Positions 3,140 through 9,926 of a stretch of 20,683 nt of DNA are shown here, piece after piece. Below the pieces are notes generated by a model. That model was given only the letters and a program-made list of their open reading frames with translations, made no database searches and was not told the origin of the DNA. Source of the DNA: a virus; IMG/VR virus record IMGVR_UViG_3300011013_000119, positions 1-20,683 of that record. The stretch is one strand, 5' to 3'. A program made the position numbers and the translations under genes. Positions within the stretch are counted from its first letter, which is position 1. The number at the start of each line of letters is the position of its first letter.

Positions 3140-3600
3140 TGGAGTTAAACTCAGGTAAAGTATTAGGAAATAAAGAACTCATAAGAGCTATGAGAAAAAT
3201 CCCTTATGCTGTAAAAAGAGATAAATTCTTTATGGCTGTATTTAGACAAGCTGCAAAACCTATTATAGCTGCAGCTAGATCAAGAATAAAAAATGATGAA
3301 GGAGATTTAAGAAGGAGTATAAAAGCTTTTAGTACAAGAGCTTCTAGGAGGCTTCCTGCTTTATATGTAGGACCAAAAGCAACTGGAGGATCAGCTACAA
3401 AAAATGAGCAAAGAGGAGGAGGATATTATGGAGCTATGGTAGAATATGGAACTGCTACAGCAGATCCTCATCCATTTATGCGACCAGCGTGGGATCAAAC
3501 TCAAGGGCAAGCAGGAGCTATCTTATTAGCAGGAGCTAAAGCAATAGTAGAAAAAGTTTTACAAAGAGAACTCAAAGGACAAAAAAGAATATATAAATAA
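3139..3600 (+). CDS. HK97 gp10-family neck/tail completion protein
   Basis: Resembles the HK97 gp10-like family of tail completion proteins that sit between connector and tail tube. Supporting features are the N-terminal long helix with basic residues (ELIRAMRKIPYAVKRDKFF), the segment AAKPIIAAARSRIKNDEGDLRRSI, which matches the family hallmark (helix, then a G-x-L-R/K-S-I element), the strand LPALYVGPKATGG and the C-terminal VEYGTATADPHPFMRPAWD motif. The VE(Y/F)GT...PHPFMRPA motif is the most diagnostic part. The length of 153 residues is usual. It overlaps both neighbours by one base. Confidence 0.88.
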   Translation: MELNSGKVLGNKELIRAMRKIPYAVKRDKFFMAVFRQAAKPIIAAARSRIKNDEGDLRRSIKAFSTRASRRLPALYVGPKATGGSATKNEQRGGGYYGAMVEYGTATADPHPFMRPAWDQTQGQAGAILLAGAKAIVEKVLQRELKGQKRIYK

Positions 3601-4814
3601 TGCGAACAGGAGCAATAGTTTTTGGAATGTTAAGAGGCTATACTAGCTTAATGGAACGAATACCATCTTCTAAGATATTCGCTTTAAGGGCTGCACAGCC
3701 TACTGCTAGTCCTTATATAGTTTATAGAGAAGTAAGTACAATTCCATTAAATACTAAAGGAGCTTCTTTAGGTTACTTTAGTGATCCTAGAATATCCCAA
3801 AGGAGTTTAGTAGATACTACTAGAATCCAGCTTTCTGTTTTTGGTAAAACATATTTAGAGGTAGAAGATATAGCTGTATTAATAAGAGAGGCTATGGATA
3901 GAGAATGGGGGACTGTTCCTGCTTATCCGAATGATGTTTATGTAGATTCTTGCGTATTTGAAAACTGTGTAGATGATTATGATGATTCAGCTGAAAATAT
4001 AGGAGTTTATGTAAAGCATTTAGATTTCGTAATAAGAATAGTAAGACTAGATATTTCTAATACTTGGACTAATCAATATTCTTTAGCTTTTGATGGAGTA
4101 GATGATTATGTTACTTTCGGAAACGCTACAAACTGGAGTATAAATGGATCTGGAGGAAATAGAGGATTTAGTCTTTCAGTATGGGTAAATTTTGCAGAAA
4201 GTGCATCTGGTCAATATATACTCAATAAAGATGGACTCTATTACTCTGGAGCAAATCATTATGAATATTTTTTAATGAATAGATTTAACAATCAGATAAG
4301 GTTTTGTATGAAGTTCGGAGATACAAATACTAACTTTATAAACTTTGACTCTGTAGCTAGTGTAGATGATGATGTATGGAATCATATAGTAATAACTTAT
4401 GACCTCTCAGGAGCAGCTACAGGACTAAATATGTATATAAATAACGTATTGAAAAATACTACAAATGGAGGAGCTAGCGTGTCTTTAACTGGAAGCTGGG
4501 GAACTCCATCTACTACAGACAATAATTTATTTATGGATAAAAGTGCAGGTACTGATTATACAGAAGGAAAAATGGATGAGTTCTCAATATGGGATGAAGT
4601 GCTATCTGCTGATGATGTTTCGAGATTGTATGGAAGTGGAGCTACAGGAGATCCTAATAAATATCCTGTATCTTCAGATTTTTTAGTAGGATTTTGGAGA
4701 AATGGAGATGGAGCTACTTATCCTACAATACCAGATAATTCTCCTTTATATAGTAATGATGGGACAATGACTAATATGTCCTCTGATGATATTAATACAG
4801 CTGTACCAGGATAA
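3600..4814 (+). CDS. tail terminator-like protein fused to a LamG/concanavalin-like lectin domain
   Basis: Residues 1-150 look like a DUF3168/tail terminator protein (alpha/beta, with YIVYREVSTIP, DTTRIQLSVFGKTYLEVEDIA and a final beta strand VYVKHLDFVIRIVRL); position after gp10-like supports this. Residues about 160-347 form a LamG_3-type jelly roll: SLAFDGVDDYVTFG (161-174), FSLSVWVNF (190-198), VWNHIVITYDLSG (259-271), MYINN, and GKMDEFSIWDEVLSADDV (323-340). The last 50 residues carry WRNGDGAT and DNSPLYSNDGTM, which is the usual tail end of LamG proteins. Terminators are normally 120-150 residues, so this protein is nearly three times as long. LamG domains bind glycans or proteins; here it would be displayed as a ring at the head-tail junction. 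The frame is uninterrupted, so the fusion is real unless the assembly is wrong. Binding function is inference. Confidence 0.8.
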   Translation: MRTGAIVFGMLRGYTSLMERIPSSKIFALRAAQPTASPYIVYREVSTIPLNTKGASLGYFSDPRISQRSLVDTTRIQLSVFGKTYLEVEDIAVLIREAMDREWGTVPAYPNDVYVDSCVFENCVDDYDDSAENIGVYVKHLDFVIRIVRLDISNTWTNQYSLAFDGVDDYVTFGNATNWSINGSGGNRGFSLSVWVNFAESASGQYILNKDGLYYSGANHYEYFLMNRFNNQIRFCMKFGDTNTNFINFDSVASVDDDVWNHIVITYDLSGAATGLNMYINNVLKNTTNGGASVSLTGSWGTPSTTDNNLFMDKSAGTDYTEGKMDEFSIWDEVLSADDVSRLYGSGATGDPNKYPVSSDFLVGFWRNGDGATYPTIPDNSPLYSNDGTMTNMSSDDINTAVPG

Positions 4815-5563: not shown

Positions 5564-6013
5564 ATGGCTATAAATGGAGTTATAAATGGGAGCGAATATT
5601 TACTGCTAGTGAATGGGAAATATGCAATATTAGGAGATAATGCTAATTTCTCTGTAGAAAGTGCTACTAAAGATATTACAGTCAGAGAAACTTATGGCTG
5701 GAATACTTCTTTGCTATCTAGTAGGAGCTGGGTTTTTGAGTTTACAGGAAAATTAGGATTTAAGTATTCTGATGGTACTTTAACCAGTCAGCATACTTCT
5801 TTATTAGCAATGAGTCCTGATGAGATTTTAGAAGATGGAATAATAAATCAGGAGAAATTTTGGTTAAATTTAAAATGCGTAACATCTGGAACTCCTTATT
5901 GGCAGGGACAAGGATATTTACAAAGTGCAGAAATTTCTGCTCCTAATGAAGATAGTTCTACTATTAGTTTAAGTTTTTCTGGAGTAGGAGAATTAGAGCA
6001 ATTAACAATATAA
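5564..6013 (+). CDS. tail tube protein, first paralogue
   Basis: Likely tail-tube (TP901-1 major tail protein-like) subunit. It is a clear paralogue of the gene at 6082: both begin with NGVING (residues 4-9), continue with a strand, G and I/L-G, and end with YW-(Q/H)-G, a Leu strand, then PNEDSST (128-134) and SFSGxGxL. The two differ strongly in the middle, so this is an old duplication. It follows the beta-rich gene without spacing and has no A-rich leader, suggesting lower translation than its copy. It could form part of the tube, a specialised ring at one end, or an alternative subunit. The family is moderately certain; which copy is the main tube protein is inference. Confidence 0.78.
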   Translation: MAINGVINGSEYLLLVNGKYAILGDNANFSVESATKDITVRETYGWNTSLLSSRSWVFEFTGKLGFKYSDGTLTSQHTSLLAMSPDEILEDGIINQEKFWLNLKCVTSGTPYWQGQGYLQSAEISAPNEDSSTISLSFSGVGELEQLTI

Positions 6014-6081: not shown

Positions 6082-6519
6082 ATGGCAACAAATGGCGTAA
6101 TCAATGGAACAAAATTTGGAGTTTATGCAGCTGGCACTAAAATTGGCTATGCTACTTCTGCTTCAATATCAATGAATCACAACTTAAGAGATACTTCTAC
6201 TAAAGACTCTTCAGGATGGAGAGAGCAAATGGAAGGACAAAGAGATTGGGAAGTTTCTGTAGAAGGAATGGTAATTTTTGTAGATAACTCAGGAGGAGCA
6301 ATCTCTGATTTGACTGTAAATGAGTTATACTCTACATATATGGAGGGAGCAAATAGAACTTCTTTTGAGTTAAAATTTTCTACAGAAGTAACTGGAGATA
6401 TATACTGGCACGGTACAGCTTGGCTGACTTCTTTATCTGCAGATACTCCTAATGAAGATAGCTCTACTTGGAGTGGATCTTTTTCTGGAACTGGAGCTTT
6501 AACTCAAGCTACTGTATAA
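6082..6519 (+). CDS. major tail tube protein, second paralogue
   Basis: Probable major tail protein. The 145 residues share the N-terminal NGVING block and the C-terminal YWHG...PNEDSST...SFSGTGAL block with the gene just upstream. The Gly-Trp segments (SSGWREQMEGQRDWEVSVEG) match the typical beta-hairpin region of TP901-1-like tube proteins (SGW-E...G...W..S..G). It has its own 68-bp A-rich leader, the type of start region associated with strong translation in Bacteroidota, and is followed by an inverted repeat, so it is set apart as a high-output gene. It immediately precedes the frameshifted tail chaperone, the conserved order in siphophages. Confidence 0.85.
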   Translation: MATNGVINGTKFGVYAAGTKIGYATSASISMNHNLRDTSTKDSSGWREQMEGQRDWEVSVEGMVIFVDNSGGAISDLTVNELYSTYMEGANRTSFELKFSTEVTGDIYWHGTAWLTSLSADTPNEDSSTWSGSFSGTGALTQATV

Positions 6520-6599: not shown

Positions 6600-6608
6600 T
6601 AAAAAAAA

Positions 6609-6956
6609 ATGAAATACGAATTAATAGAATTAGGAGGAAAAAATTATCCTATATTTTTTGGATTTAATGGATTGAGAAAATATTGCGGATTAACAGGGAC
6701 ATCTCTAAATAAATTAATGAGCTTAGGGCAGGATATGAATTTAGACCAGGCTTTGAATTTAGTATTAATAGGGATAGAGGAAGGATGTAGGAAGTCAGGT
6801 CAAAAAATGGAGATAACCATAGATGATCTAGGAGATATGTTAGATACCGATATGAGTGGACTCACTAGAGCTTTAGAAATATTTGGGACTCAGATGGGAC
6901 ATAATATGGGAAACGCAAAAAAGCTCAACAAAAAAAAGGGAGGAGAAAAAAAGTAG
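6609..6956 (+). CDS. tail assembly chaperone, short (gpG-like) form
   Basis: First part of the tail assembly chaperone, which coats the tape measure during tail assembly. The 115 residues begin with KYELIELGGKNYPIFFGFNG, then LRKYCGLTGTSL and an EEGCRKSGQ helix, a pattern (gene-G-like, 'ig G k.ypi.fg.naLr.fc..tGtsl') common between tail-tube and tape measure genes of Bacteroidota phages. The C-terminus is Lys-rich (NAKKLNKKKGGEKK) because it is built over a run of A-rich slippery sequence, and it stops at a double TAGTAG. The downstream ORF is in the -1 frame and lacks a normal start, so a fraction of ribosomes should continue as a 234-residue fusion ending at 7312. Confidence 0.85.
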   Translation: MKYELIELGGKNYPIFFGFNGLRKYCGLTGTSLNKLMSLGQDMNLDQALNLVLIGIEEGCRKSGQKMEITIDDLGDMLDTDMSGLTRALEIFGTQMGHNMGNAKKLNKKKGGEKK

Positions 6957-6959
6957 TAG
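6937..6959 (+). promoter_or_regulatory. programmed -1 ribosomal frameshift signal
   Basis: The heptamer A AAA AAG (6947-6953) is in the correct phase (codons AAA at 6948 and AAG at 6951) and is followed directly by TAG TAG. An SD-like AGGGAGGAG lies just upstream (6937-6945). This closely resembles the E. coli dnaX signal (SD-like element, A AAA AAG, stop). After a -1 slip, reading resumes at 6953 as V-V-E-E-E and stays open to 7312. Two more in-phase A AAA AAG heptamers occur at 6917-6923 and 6932-6938, both inside the region where the -1 frame is open (6905 onward). Confidence 0.85.
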
Positions 6960-7312
6960 AGGAGGAAATTACTTTTGATATTGTTGAGCAGATTGCTTTT
7001 GGAGAGTTGAATATGAGTGTAAGAGATTTAGATGATATGACACCTAGAAACTTTATTAATGCGCAATTAGGAAGAAAAAAACTATATGAGCAAGATACTC
7101 AGGGAATGTGGGAGAGAGCTAGGTGGATGGCTTGCGTTATAATAAATCCTCATTTAAAACGCTCTATAGATCCTAAAAAAATAACTGTTTTTCCTTGGGA
7201 GAAAATTAAAAGATCTCGGAAAGCAATTAAAAAAGATATAGAAAAAATAATAAAAGAGTCTGCTTTTGATGATAAAGTACAACAAAAACTAAAAGAAAAA
7301 AAGAATGCCTAA
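6953..7312 (+). CDS. tail assembly chaperone, -1 frame extension (T part of gpGT-like)
   Basis: Second part of the chaperone, made by -1 frameshifting. The -1 frame has no ATG near its beginning; the first formal start would be a TTG at 7007, well inside coherent sequence (VVEEEITFDIVEQIAFGELN). Continuous translation from the slip site gives 119 extra residues, for a fusion of 234. The stretch contains DMTPRNFINAQLGRKKLYEQ and a helix with WERARWMACVIINPHLK, common in T-type extensions that contact the tape measure or tail tube. It ends KEKKNA and overlaps the tape measure start by eight bases. Position and frame relation match lambda G/GT and its analogues. Confidence 0.85.
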   Translation, partial: VVEEEITFDIVEQIAFGELNMSVRDLDDMTPRNFINAQLGRKKLYEQDTQGMWERARWMACVIINPHLKRSIDPKKITVFPWEKIKRSRKAIKKDIEKIIKESAFDDKVQQKLKEKKNA

Positions 7313-9926
7313 AAAAGCCCTAGCCTCCTTAAATGTAGTTATTAATGCAGTAACTACTCCTCTATTTAGAGGATTAAATAAAGCATCTAAAAGATTAGTA
7401 ACTTTTGGAGCTAAGATGCAAACAATAGGAAGATCTATTACTACTTCTTTTGCTTTACCTTTTGCAGCTGTTGGGGTAGCTGGAGCAAAAATGGCTATTG
7501 ACTTTGAAAAGAGTATGACTAAGATTAATACCTTAGTAGGAATCTCCAGTAAAGAAGTCAAAAACCTCTCAGGGGATGTGATGAAGTTGGCAGGCACTAC
7601 AGCTCAAGCTCCAGCCGAACTAGCTGAAGGTTTATTCTTTTTAACTTCTGCAGGATTAAGAGGAGCAGATGCTATGAAAGCTTTAGAGCAAGTATCTAAA
7701 GGAGTAGCAATAGGACTGGGAGAGCAAGCTGATTTGGCTAAAGTAGCAGCTGCAGCTCAAAATGCTTATGGAGCAGATACAGTTGATTCTACTCAGGCTT
7801 TAGATCAGTTTGCAATGGCAGTAAGAACTGGTATGTTTGAATCTTCAGAGCTAGCAGAATCTTTAGGAACTCAAGTAGGACTAGCTGCAGAACTGGGAAT
7901 ATCTTTTAAAGAATTACTCGCTAATATCTCTACCTATACAAAAACAACTGGAGATGCTAGATCTGCAACTACTGGATTTGGTGGAGTTATGATGGCAGTA
8001 ACTAAGCCAACAGAAAAAGGTAGAAAAGCTCTAGATGAGATCAATATGTCTTACGAATCTTTAAGGCGTATGGTGCAAGATGAAGGACTAGCTGCTACCT
8101 TATTCCATTTAAAAGATGCTTTTGCTGCTAATGGAGTAGAAATGTCCGATCTATTTGGTAAATCTCAAGCTATTAAAAATATAATGGGTACTCTGGGAGA
8201 ACAGGGAGATACTTATATTGAGATACTAGATAATATGGAGGAGTCTAGCGGTGCTTTAAATGAAGGCTTTGAATCTTTAGAGCAAACTGCAGGGTTTAAG
8301 ATGCAAAAAAGTTTCAATACTTTAAAGATGGCAGTTCAGGATCTAGGAACTACTATGATGCCAATATTTACTCAGATAGTAGAAGGAGCAGTAAAAATAG
8401 CTAGAGGATTTACTTCTTTAGATACAGGACAAAAGCAATTAGTATTGGCTGCAGGAACTCTAGTCGCTTTTAGTGGTCCTTTGATGACTATGGCTGGAGG
8501 GGTTACAAAAGCTTTAGGTATGATGACAGGACCTGTAGGAATGGTAGTAGTTGCTCTAGGAATTATGTTTGCTCTTATTTATGATAACTGGGAAAAAGTT
8601 AGACCTATCTTTGTAGATTTTATTAATTACTGGATAGATTTATGGAATGAATCCGAAGCCTTTAGAAGGCTAGTTCTTTCAATCGGAGCAGCATTTAAAA
8701 GTATCTGGGCTTTTATTAAATTTTTCTTTAAGGCACTCTTTCAGCAGATAGATAATCTTAGGGATTTTGGAGGAAAGGTCTTTAGTGGTTTAGGGAAGCT
8801 TATAGCTGGAGCTTTCACTTTAGATATGGATTTAGGGAAGGAAGGTTATGAAGAAATGATGGAATTTGGAGAGGGCATAAGGAGAGGGATGGATGAGATT
8901 GAGGGAGATTTCTTAGATGAAATAGATGAGATCAATAGAGCTATGACTGAAGGAATGAGGATGAAAGATAAGATAGAGCTAGTTACCGAAGATCAACTAG
9001 ATCAAGCTATAGGAGATATGGAGGCTTATATGACTCAGAAAATGAAGGATGCTAAAGCAAAACTCCAGTCCCTTTTTGAAGGAGGAACTAATGTAAATCC
9101 TGGAGGAGATCCTAAAGATCCAGAAGGGGGAGATCCAGAAGGGGGAGATCCTAATGAATTAGAAGGAACTTTAGATGAAAAACTATCTAAATGGCAAACT
9201 TACTGGAACTCAGTAAAAGGAGGTATGAAAAATCTAGGAAAATATTTTAAAGAAAACTATCAAACAATGATGGATTCTGCTCAAGCTATTCTAGGAGGTA
9301 TAGGTGCTTTATGGGCTGCAGAACACGAAAAACAAATGACTATCATAGAGAACGATCAAATCAGATCTCAAGAGGCTTTTGATGCAGATTATGAGAGAGA
9401 GCGACTACAGTTAGAAAATACTAAAATGACTGATAAAGAAAGAGAAGAAGCTGAATTAGAGTTGAAAGAAAAATATGATAAGAAACAAGAGAGTATGGAT
9501 AAAGGATTTGAAGCTAGAAAAAAAATTGCAGAAACAAAACAAGCTAAACGAAACAAAGCAATGAATATAGCTAACGCTATAATGGGAGGAGCAAATGCAG
9601 TTGTTCAAGCTTTAACAGTACCTCCCCCAGCTGGACCTATTTTGGCTGCAATAGTGGGAGGACTAGCTGCAGCTCAAGTAGCAGTAATAGCTTCTACTCC
9701 TATCCCTCTAGCTGAAGGGGGAATAGCCTTTGGTCCTACTAATGCTTTAGTCGGAGAATATCCTGGAGCTTCTACAGATCCAGAGGTTGTCGCTCCTTTA
9801 TCTAAATTGAAATCAATGCTAGGCAATCAAATGAATGTACAGTTACAAGTAGGAGGGGTATTAAAAGGAGAGGATATTTATTTATCTAATGACCTAGCTA
9901 CTACACAAAGAGAAAGATATATCTAA
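7305..9926 (+). CDS. tail tape measure protein
   Basis: Sets tail length and is ejected into the host ahead of DNA. Residues about 65-330 are the TP901-type tape measure core (DFEKSMTKINTLVGIS, then LAEGLFFLTSAGLRGADAMKALE and FKELLANISTYTKTTGDARS). A hydrophobic stretch at 376-426 can span membrane. Residues 597-616 form a Gly/Pro/Asp hinge with tandem DPEGG repeats. A charged coiled coil runs from about 675 to 755, a second hydrophobic stretch from 756 to 800, and the conserved C-terminal LAEGGIAFGPTNALVGEYPG follows. At about 0.15 nm per residue, 873 residues predict a tail near 130 nm. No sheath gene is present, so the tail is non-contractile. The gene overlaps the chaperone by eight bases and ends in TAATG with the next gene. 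Confidence 0.93.
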   Translation: MPKKALASLNVVINAVTTPLFRGLNKASKRLVTFGAKMQTIGRSITTSFALPFAAVGVAGAKMAIDFEKSMTKINTLVGISSKEVKNLSGDVMKLAGTTAQAPAELAEGLFFLTSAGLRGADAMKALEQVSKGVAIGLGEQADLAKVAAAAQNAYGADTVDSTQALDQFAMAVRTGMFESSELAESLGTQVGLAAELGISFKELLANISTYTKTTGDARSATTGFGGVMMAVTKPTEKGRKALDEINMSYESLRRMVQDEGLAATLFHLKDAFAANGVEMSDLFGKSQAIKNIMGTLGEQGDTYIEILDNMEESSGALNEGFESLEQTAGFKMQKSFNTLKMAVQDLGTTMMPIFTQIVEGAVKIARGFTSLDTGQKQLVLAAGTLVAFSGPLMTMAGGVTKALGMMTGPVGMVVVALGIMFALIYDNWEKVRPIFVDFINYWIDLWNESEAFRRLVLSIGAAFKSIWAFIKFFFKALFQQIDNLRDFGGKVFSGLGKLIAGAFTLDMDLGKEGYEEMMEFGEGIRRGMDEIEGDFLDEIDEINRAMTEGMRMKDKIELVTEDQLDQAIGDMEAYMTQKMKDAKAKLQSLFEGGTNVNPGGDPKDPEGGDPEGGDPNELEGTLDEKLSKWQTYWNSVKGGMKNLGKYFKENYQTMMDSAQAILGGIGALWAAEHEKQMTIIENDQIRSQEAFDADYERERLQLENTKMTDKEREEAELELKEKYDKKQESMDKGFEARKKIAETKQAKRNKAMNIANAIMGGANAVVQALTVPPPAGPILAAIVGGLAAAQVAVIASTPIPLAEGGIAFGPTNALVGEYPGASTDPEVVAPLSKLKSMLGNQMNVQLQVGGVLKGEDIYLSNDLATTQRERYI
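9117..9146 (+). repeat. two perfect 15-bp tandem repeats in the tape measure gene
   Basis: The unit GATCCAGAAGGGGGA occurs twice head to tail and encodes DPEGG repeated in a flexible hinge. Because the unit is a multiple of three, gain or loss by slippage would keep the frame and change only hinge length. Confidence 0.85.

Follow-up and report, generated by a model that had tools for sequence, protein, structure and literature searches.

The window, which is the whole stretch of 20,683 nucleotides analysed here, is a 20.7-kb virus record whose genes for head, tail tube, tape measure and further tail proteins stand in this order. Two overlapping open reading frames, ORF1 and ORF2, are flanked by the tail tube gene (6082-6519, PF06199) on one side and the tape measure gene (7305-9926) on the other. 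The features of this overlap are the following:

6609-6956, + strand: ORF1, 115 amino acids, stop codon TAG at 6954-6956; putative tail assembly chaperone, G-like, predicted abundant product
6908-6914, + strand: G GGA AAC, a fourth in-phase slippery heptamer, common to the nearest relatives (L029-L033)
6917-6923, + strand: the first in-phase A AAA AAG; not conserved (AAAGAAG in L029 and L030) and possibly a minor site
6930-6938, + strand: conserved slip run of eight A's (A8) and a G, with the heptamer A AAA AAG in phase at 6932-6938; most likely slip site
6937-6945, + strand: AGGGAGGAG, a Shine-Dalgarno (SD)-like stretch lying 1-4 nt before the third heptamer and unlikely to influence a -1 shift
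6947-6953, + strand: the third in-phase A AAA AAG, adjoining the TAG that follows it; possibly a minor site
6953-7312, + strand: ORF2, putative T-like domain in the -1 frame; predicted to be made only as a fusion to ORF1

For comparison we used 126 loci carrying both ORFs, drawn from viral contigs, named phages and prophages and grouped into 61 clusters. Of the named relatives, some infect Cellulophaga or Bacteroides, and others are found in genomes of the Prevotella type. In a protein tree the family falls into two groups (100/100): clade I, with 28 clusters including the window and Cellulophaga phage phi39:1, and clade II, with 33 clusters from Bacteroidales.

ORF1 matches phrog_2115, annotated as "tail protein" (E 2.4e-4), and its AlphaFold model (pLDDT 78) finds its best BFVD match (E 7.4e-7, TM 0.74) in an entry named "Tail assembly chaperone protein"; by position and modelled fold ORF1 looks like a tail assembly chaperone. 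ORF2 matches phrog_16333 (E 4.6e-14), a family without a named function, and its predicted structure is of low confidence (pLDDT 69.5). The Pfam family Phage_TAC_6 is matched weakly by three of 22 ORF2 relatives (best E 1.9e-4) and not by the window's own ORF2, and the lambda family Phage_tail_T is matched weakly by the ORF2 of one clade II member (E 0.043). Profiles of both ORFs gave no sequence match to solved structures, Foldseek against the PDB found nothing meaningful, and in Pfam the two window proteins have no detectable sequence match to the lambda proteins. A tblastn search with ORF1 in named phages returned chance-level matches only, and a first scan of genome contigs with the clade I profile returned none. 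Protein matches and gene order together identify the two frames as a predicted chaperone pair of the G / G-T type; for ORF2 taken alone the identification is weaker. Upstream of the pair, two tail-tube-like genes stand in tandem (5564-6013 and 6082-6519, 65 bases apart), both matching phrog_1407 major tail protein, and in the gene at 3600-4814 an N-terminal tail terminator region (phrog_347) continues into a long C-terminal part of LamG/concanavalin-type appearance.

The -1 frame stays open between 6905 and its TAA stop codon (7310-7312), and a single -1 slip at any of the three A AAA AAG heptamers gives a 234 amino acid product with no intervening stop. This is the fusion that an earlier note on this DNA had predicted, and the prediction holds up well: the frames and heptamers are present as described, and all 33 distinct clade I relatives checked combine a -1 ORF2 with a slippery heptamer in phase. 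The same note had counted three in-phase heptamers; all three are there, and it had overlooked G GGA AAC at 6908-6914, which is a low-efficiency heptamer in E. coli (PMC4066793). The three fusion products vary only in a short basic linker, GNAKK[AQQKKGRR / LNKKKGRR / LNKKKGGE]KKVV, so that the predicted diagnostic peptides are KAQQKK for site 1, the KKGRRKKVVEEE-type for site 2 and KGGEKKVV for site 3. With the amino acids and the codon usage of the window held fixed, the chance that the last 40 codons of ORF1 contain three in-phase copies of A AAA AAG is about 0.0008; elsewhere only two in-phase copies occur among the 26 window genes checked.

Comparison of the relatives singles out the second of these sites. 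ORF2 lies in the -1 frame in 57 of the 61 clusters and, as recorded, in the +1/-2 frame in the other four. A run of six to nine A's (A6-A9) is present in the overlap of 56 of the 57 -1 clusters, and in all 56 it aligns with the second heptamer, that is with the window's A8 (6930-6937) and the following G. In several relatives (the L038 group, L021 and L064) the run itself, or a point just before it, is where the -1 frame first opens, so that the slip must occur there. The first heptamer is lost in the two relatives of about 97% identity, L029 and L030, where the third is kept but is now parted from the stop by an extra AAG codon. A second downstream heptamer is found also in L031, L021, L022 and L014, most other relatives being without it, and the third heptamer, along with AGGGAGGAG, is seen in the closest relatives only or reappears at different spacings. 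Judged from these alignments, it is the A-run, often exactly nine long, that evolution keeps, and not the dnaX-like signal to which the earlier note had drawn attention.

The sequences show the two frames, the conserved heptamers and an ORF2 whose coding begins ahead of any start codon; that a fusion is made, where the slip occurs and by which machine is what we infer. The window would carry a programmed -1 frame fusion of the lambda G / G-T type, and probably obtains it mainly by an unassisted ribosomal slip at 6932-6938. The second heptamer would let two tRNA-Lys slip back by one base with no SD or structural stimulator acting, giving the 115 amino acid protein as main product and the 234 amino acid fusion as minor product. 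Slippage of RNA polymerase on the A8 run may contribute further, yielding an identical protein. We propose that a bare heptamer would suffice because only a few percent of fusion would be needed; phage tail chaperone constructs have given 6-7% frameshifting (PMC3711429).

The clade to which the window belongs argues for the ribosome. In clade I the run varies from A6 to A9, most members having A9, and is nearly always in the A AAA AAG phase; L038 and L046 depart from this phase and have A9. Nine -1 clusters have a run shorter than A9 (four A6, two A7, three A8) and all nine are in the A AAA AAG phase, a run this short being found in none of the 28 out-of-phase clusters (Fisher P 0.0018, ignoring relatedness). 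Seven A's were necessary for the transcriptional slippage of IS1447 (PMC6211511), so the A6 members of clade I could not use it. In the subclade formed by L064 and L107-L110, with runs of A6-A8, a strong stem-loop (in L064 within 1000-1055) follows the heptamer by 6-7 nt in five of five members (z -3.0 to -5.5), and one of its pairs appears as A-U, G-C and C-G, which is compensatory; heptamer and stem-loop have the form of a classical -1 frameshift signal. The only heptamer of L080 is the lambda-type G GGA AAG, which we take to be the heptamer of lambda itself. Both the stem-loop and the L080 heptamer point to ribosomal frameshifting in these phages.

Some observations speak against the ribosomal reading. 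Most clade I relatives have A9, and in 15 of 18 clusters an A closes the codon that precedes KKK, where 53% would be expected (P 0.008), a bias suggesting that the length of the run counts even outside the heptamer. The window's A8 is long enough for polymerase slippage, for which a run of n > 7 has been given (PMC3711429), and the window shows no structure downstream of the site (z -0.5).

That RNA polymerase slippage is the main route in the window, an extra A being added on the A8 run and the transcript then being translated normally into the fusion, is the strongest alternative, though we consider it rather improbable. Its evidence comes chiefly from clade II. The clade II members in -1 all have exactly A9, in three codon phases (xxx AAA AAA AAA; GAA AAA AAA Axx; xxA AAA AAA AAG) and followed by G or C, although these clusters are related, so that their independence is overstated, and A9 in any phase fits the ribosome too, every A9 containing an in-phase A AAA AAA. 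The run is unchanged through at least eight phase changes on the tree. It is kept although clade II loci have 44-65% GC and AAA makes up only 40% of their lysine codons, and no other A9 is present in the 84.7 kb of the out-of-phase loci (phase 0 and 1). Clade II has no recognised stimulator and, on average, no RNA structure. Four clusters of the family are recorded in the +1/-2 direction, and varying direction among orthologues has been taken as a sign of transcriptional realignment (PMC3711429). The A9 of IS1447 slips at about 16% in each direction (PMC6211511), and single-base insertions rise exponentially with run length, the RNA:DNA hybrid being 9 nt (PMC5574713). Taken together, this pattern points to RNA polymerase slippage as the source of the fusion in clade II.

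For the window itself the case is weakened by a run that is A8 instead of A9 and lies in the A AAA AAG phase, and, within clade I, by the A6 of some members, the stem-loop of others and the lack of a long run in L080. Programmed transcriptional realignment would be expected to keep a homopolymer of at least eight at constant length irrespective of codon phase; clade II conserves length (A9) without phase, and clade I keeps phase nearly fixed while length varies from A6 to A9. We favour the ribosome over the polymerase for the window because its phase is that of clade I, because shorter runs work in that clade, and because the two further in-phase heptamers of the window would help only the ribosome. 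A slip at site 2 and an added A give an identical protein, and hence only RNA data separate the two machines.

The +1/-2 cases deserve separate description. In phi39:1 (L002 2586-3312; NC_021804.1 10330-11056) gp19 and gp20, the latter the ORF2 homologue, are joined by an A8 in the +1/-2 frame. One A more would make the usual A9 in -1, and the recorded frame could be an undercalled A9 homopolymer. In the annotation of this phage an MS/MS note is absent on gp19 and gp20 and present on most neighbouring structural proteins. The other +1/-2 copies of ORF2 are in prophages, with A8 in L112 (Prevotella sp. S7-1-8) and L118 (P. falsenii) and A9 in L126 (a Porphyromonadaceae MAG); L114 and L119, which are close relatives of such copies, have A9 and -1. 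Sequencing error, decay or a real change of direction would each account for the prophage copies, and the four +1/-2 clusters may include homopolymer errors.

A further alternative is that ORF2 is translated alone, by initiation or reinitiation at TTG 7007 or ATG 7013, which we regard as very unlikely. Such codons are present in the window and in some relatives, and the annotation of phi39:1 gp20 takes this form. The ORF2 residues T7, F8, D9, E12, G17 and E18 (TFD..E....GE), invariant in 22 relatives, nevertheless precede the first possible start of the window (TTG 7007), and among relatives the first possible start shifts between 11 and 77 nt past the ORF1 stop while the slip run is kept everywhere. 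The earlier note had named homologues with their own ORF2 start and no heptamer as evidence that would speak against a fusion; the clade I relatives checked all keep an in-phase heptamer. An independent start is rejected, as conserved ORF2 coding begins upstream of any start codon.

As for the third heptamer, this A AAA AAG does have both a stop codon and a purine stretch of SD-like sequence close by. The earlier note had read them as a signal of the E. coli dnaX kind and had suggested looking for their conservation in related phages. AGGGAGGAG ends 1 nt before the heptamer and its AGGGAG part 4 nt before, whereas SD stimulators act from 9-14 nt upstream for -1 shifts and from 3 nt upstream for +1 shifts (PMC5009743). 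The stretch is limited to the window and its relatives of about 97% identity, one of which has AGGGAGTAG in its place. An SD-like motif 9-14 nt upstream is absent at all three A AAA AAG heptamers of the window, and at the conserved site it occurs in nine of 56 clusters, against 8.1 expected at random positions, that is with no enrichment. Downstream of the window sites no stem-loop exceeds shuffled sequences (z -0.5; z 0.87 for 6954-7033), and the same holds on average 3' of the run in the A9 relatives. SD-like motifs precede only four of 33 window gene starts, the leaders being A-rich (e.g. 6601-6609), as expected for Bacteroidota. With a spacing of 1-4 nt, no conservation, few SD-like leaders and no stem-loop, an SD-stimulated slip at the third heptamer is the least credible of the explanations and can practically be set aside. 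The wider question of SD-stimulated frameshifting in Flavobacteriia, described in the earlier note as open, has already been addressed using F. johnsoniae prfB (PMC8710568), for which low-efficiency frameshifting is reported (PMC12421855). The virion mass spectrometry proposed there is a poor test, since the tail chaperones of lambda are not in mature virions (PMC5009743).

It is close to an even call, with the balance slightly on the negative side, whether two machines serve this gene pair in related Bacteroidota phages, the ribosome slipping by -1 at A AAA AAG and the polymerase at a phase-free A9, with the A8-A9 phages, including the window, being intermediate and having both in operation. 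Frameshifted tail chaperones are well known (PMC5009743). In almost all long-tailed phages that have been studied, a slip rate sets the chaperone ratio, which has been ascribed to the ribosome. The present family suggests that Bacteroidota phages, in whose hosts SD stimulation is weak, rely on an A-run alone, with RNA polymerase probably setting the ratio in the Bacteroidales clade. In a literature search limited to freely available papers, we found neither transcriptional slippage for tail chaperones nor any slippage in Bacteroides phages, and we know of no tail chaperone made by transcriptional slippage. The -1 chaperone fusion is thus of a known kind, and its phase-free A9 version appears to be new. 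In practical terms, gene finders split this chaperone gene when applied to such phages, and mass spectrometry by itself does not distinguish between the mechanisms of slippage.

Among known systems the closest is lambda G / G-T, which shares the position between tail tube and tape measure, the short ORF1 with ORF2 in -1, the in-phase slippery heptamer near the end of ORF1 and a second frame that needs no separate start; the window family differs in slipping at an A8 (A6-A9) run and not at G GGA AAG. With E. coli dnaX the window shares the A AAA AAG heptamer and a nearby SD-like stretch, but this stretch is far too close and there is no stem-loop, and the shift in dnaX ends the protein, whereas that of the window extends it. 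Thermus thermophilus dnaX and IS1447 (A9) resemble the family in their A-run, the Bacteroidales relatives having exactly A9 in any phase with no recognised stimulator; unlike them, the window carries an A8 that is read as A AAA AAG, and it belongs to a family where the slip would serve the structural ratio of tail chaperones. Finally, prfB of F. johnsoniae is a frameshifting case from a lineage in which SD sequences play hardly any part (PMC8710568, PMC12421855), but its shift is +1, occurs at a stop codon, is autoregulatory and is not homologous to the locus described here.
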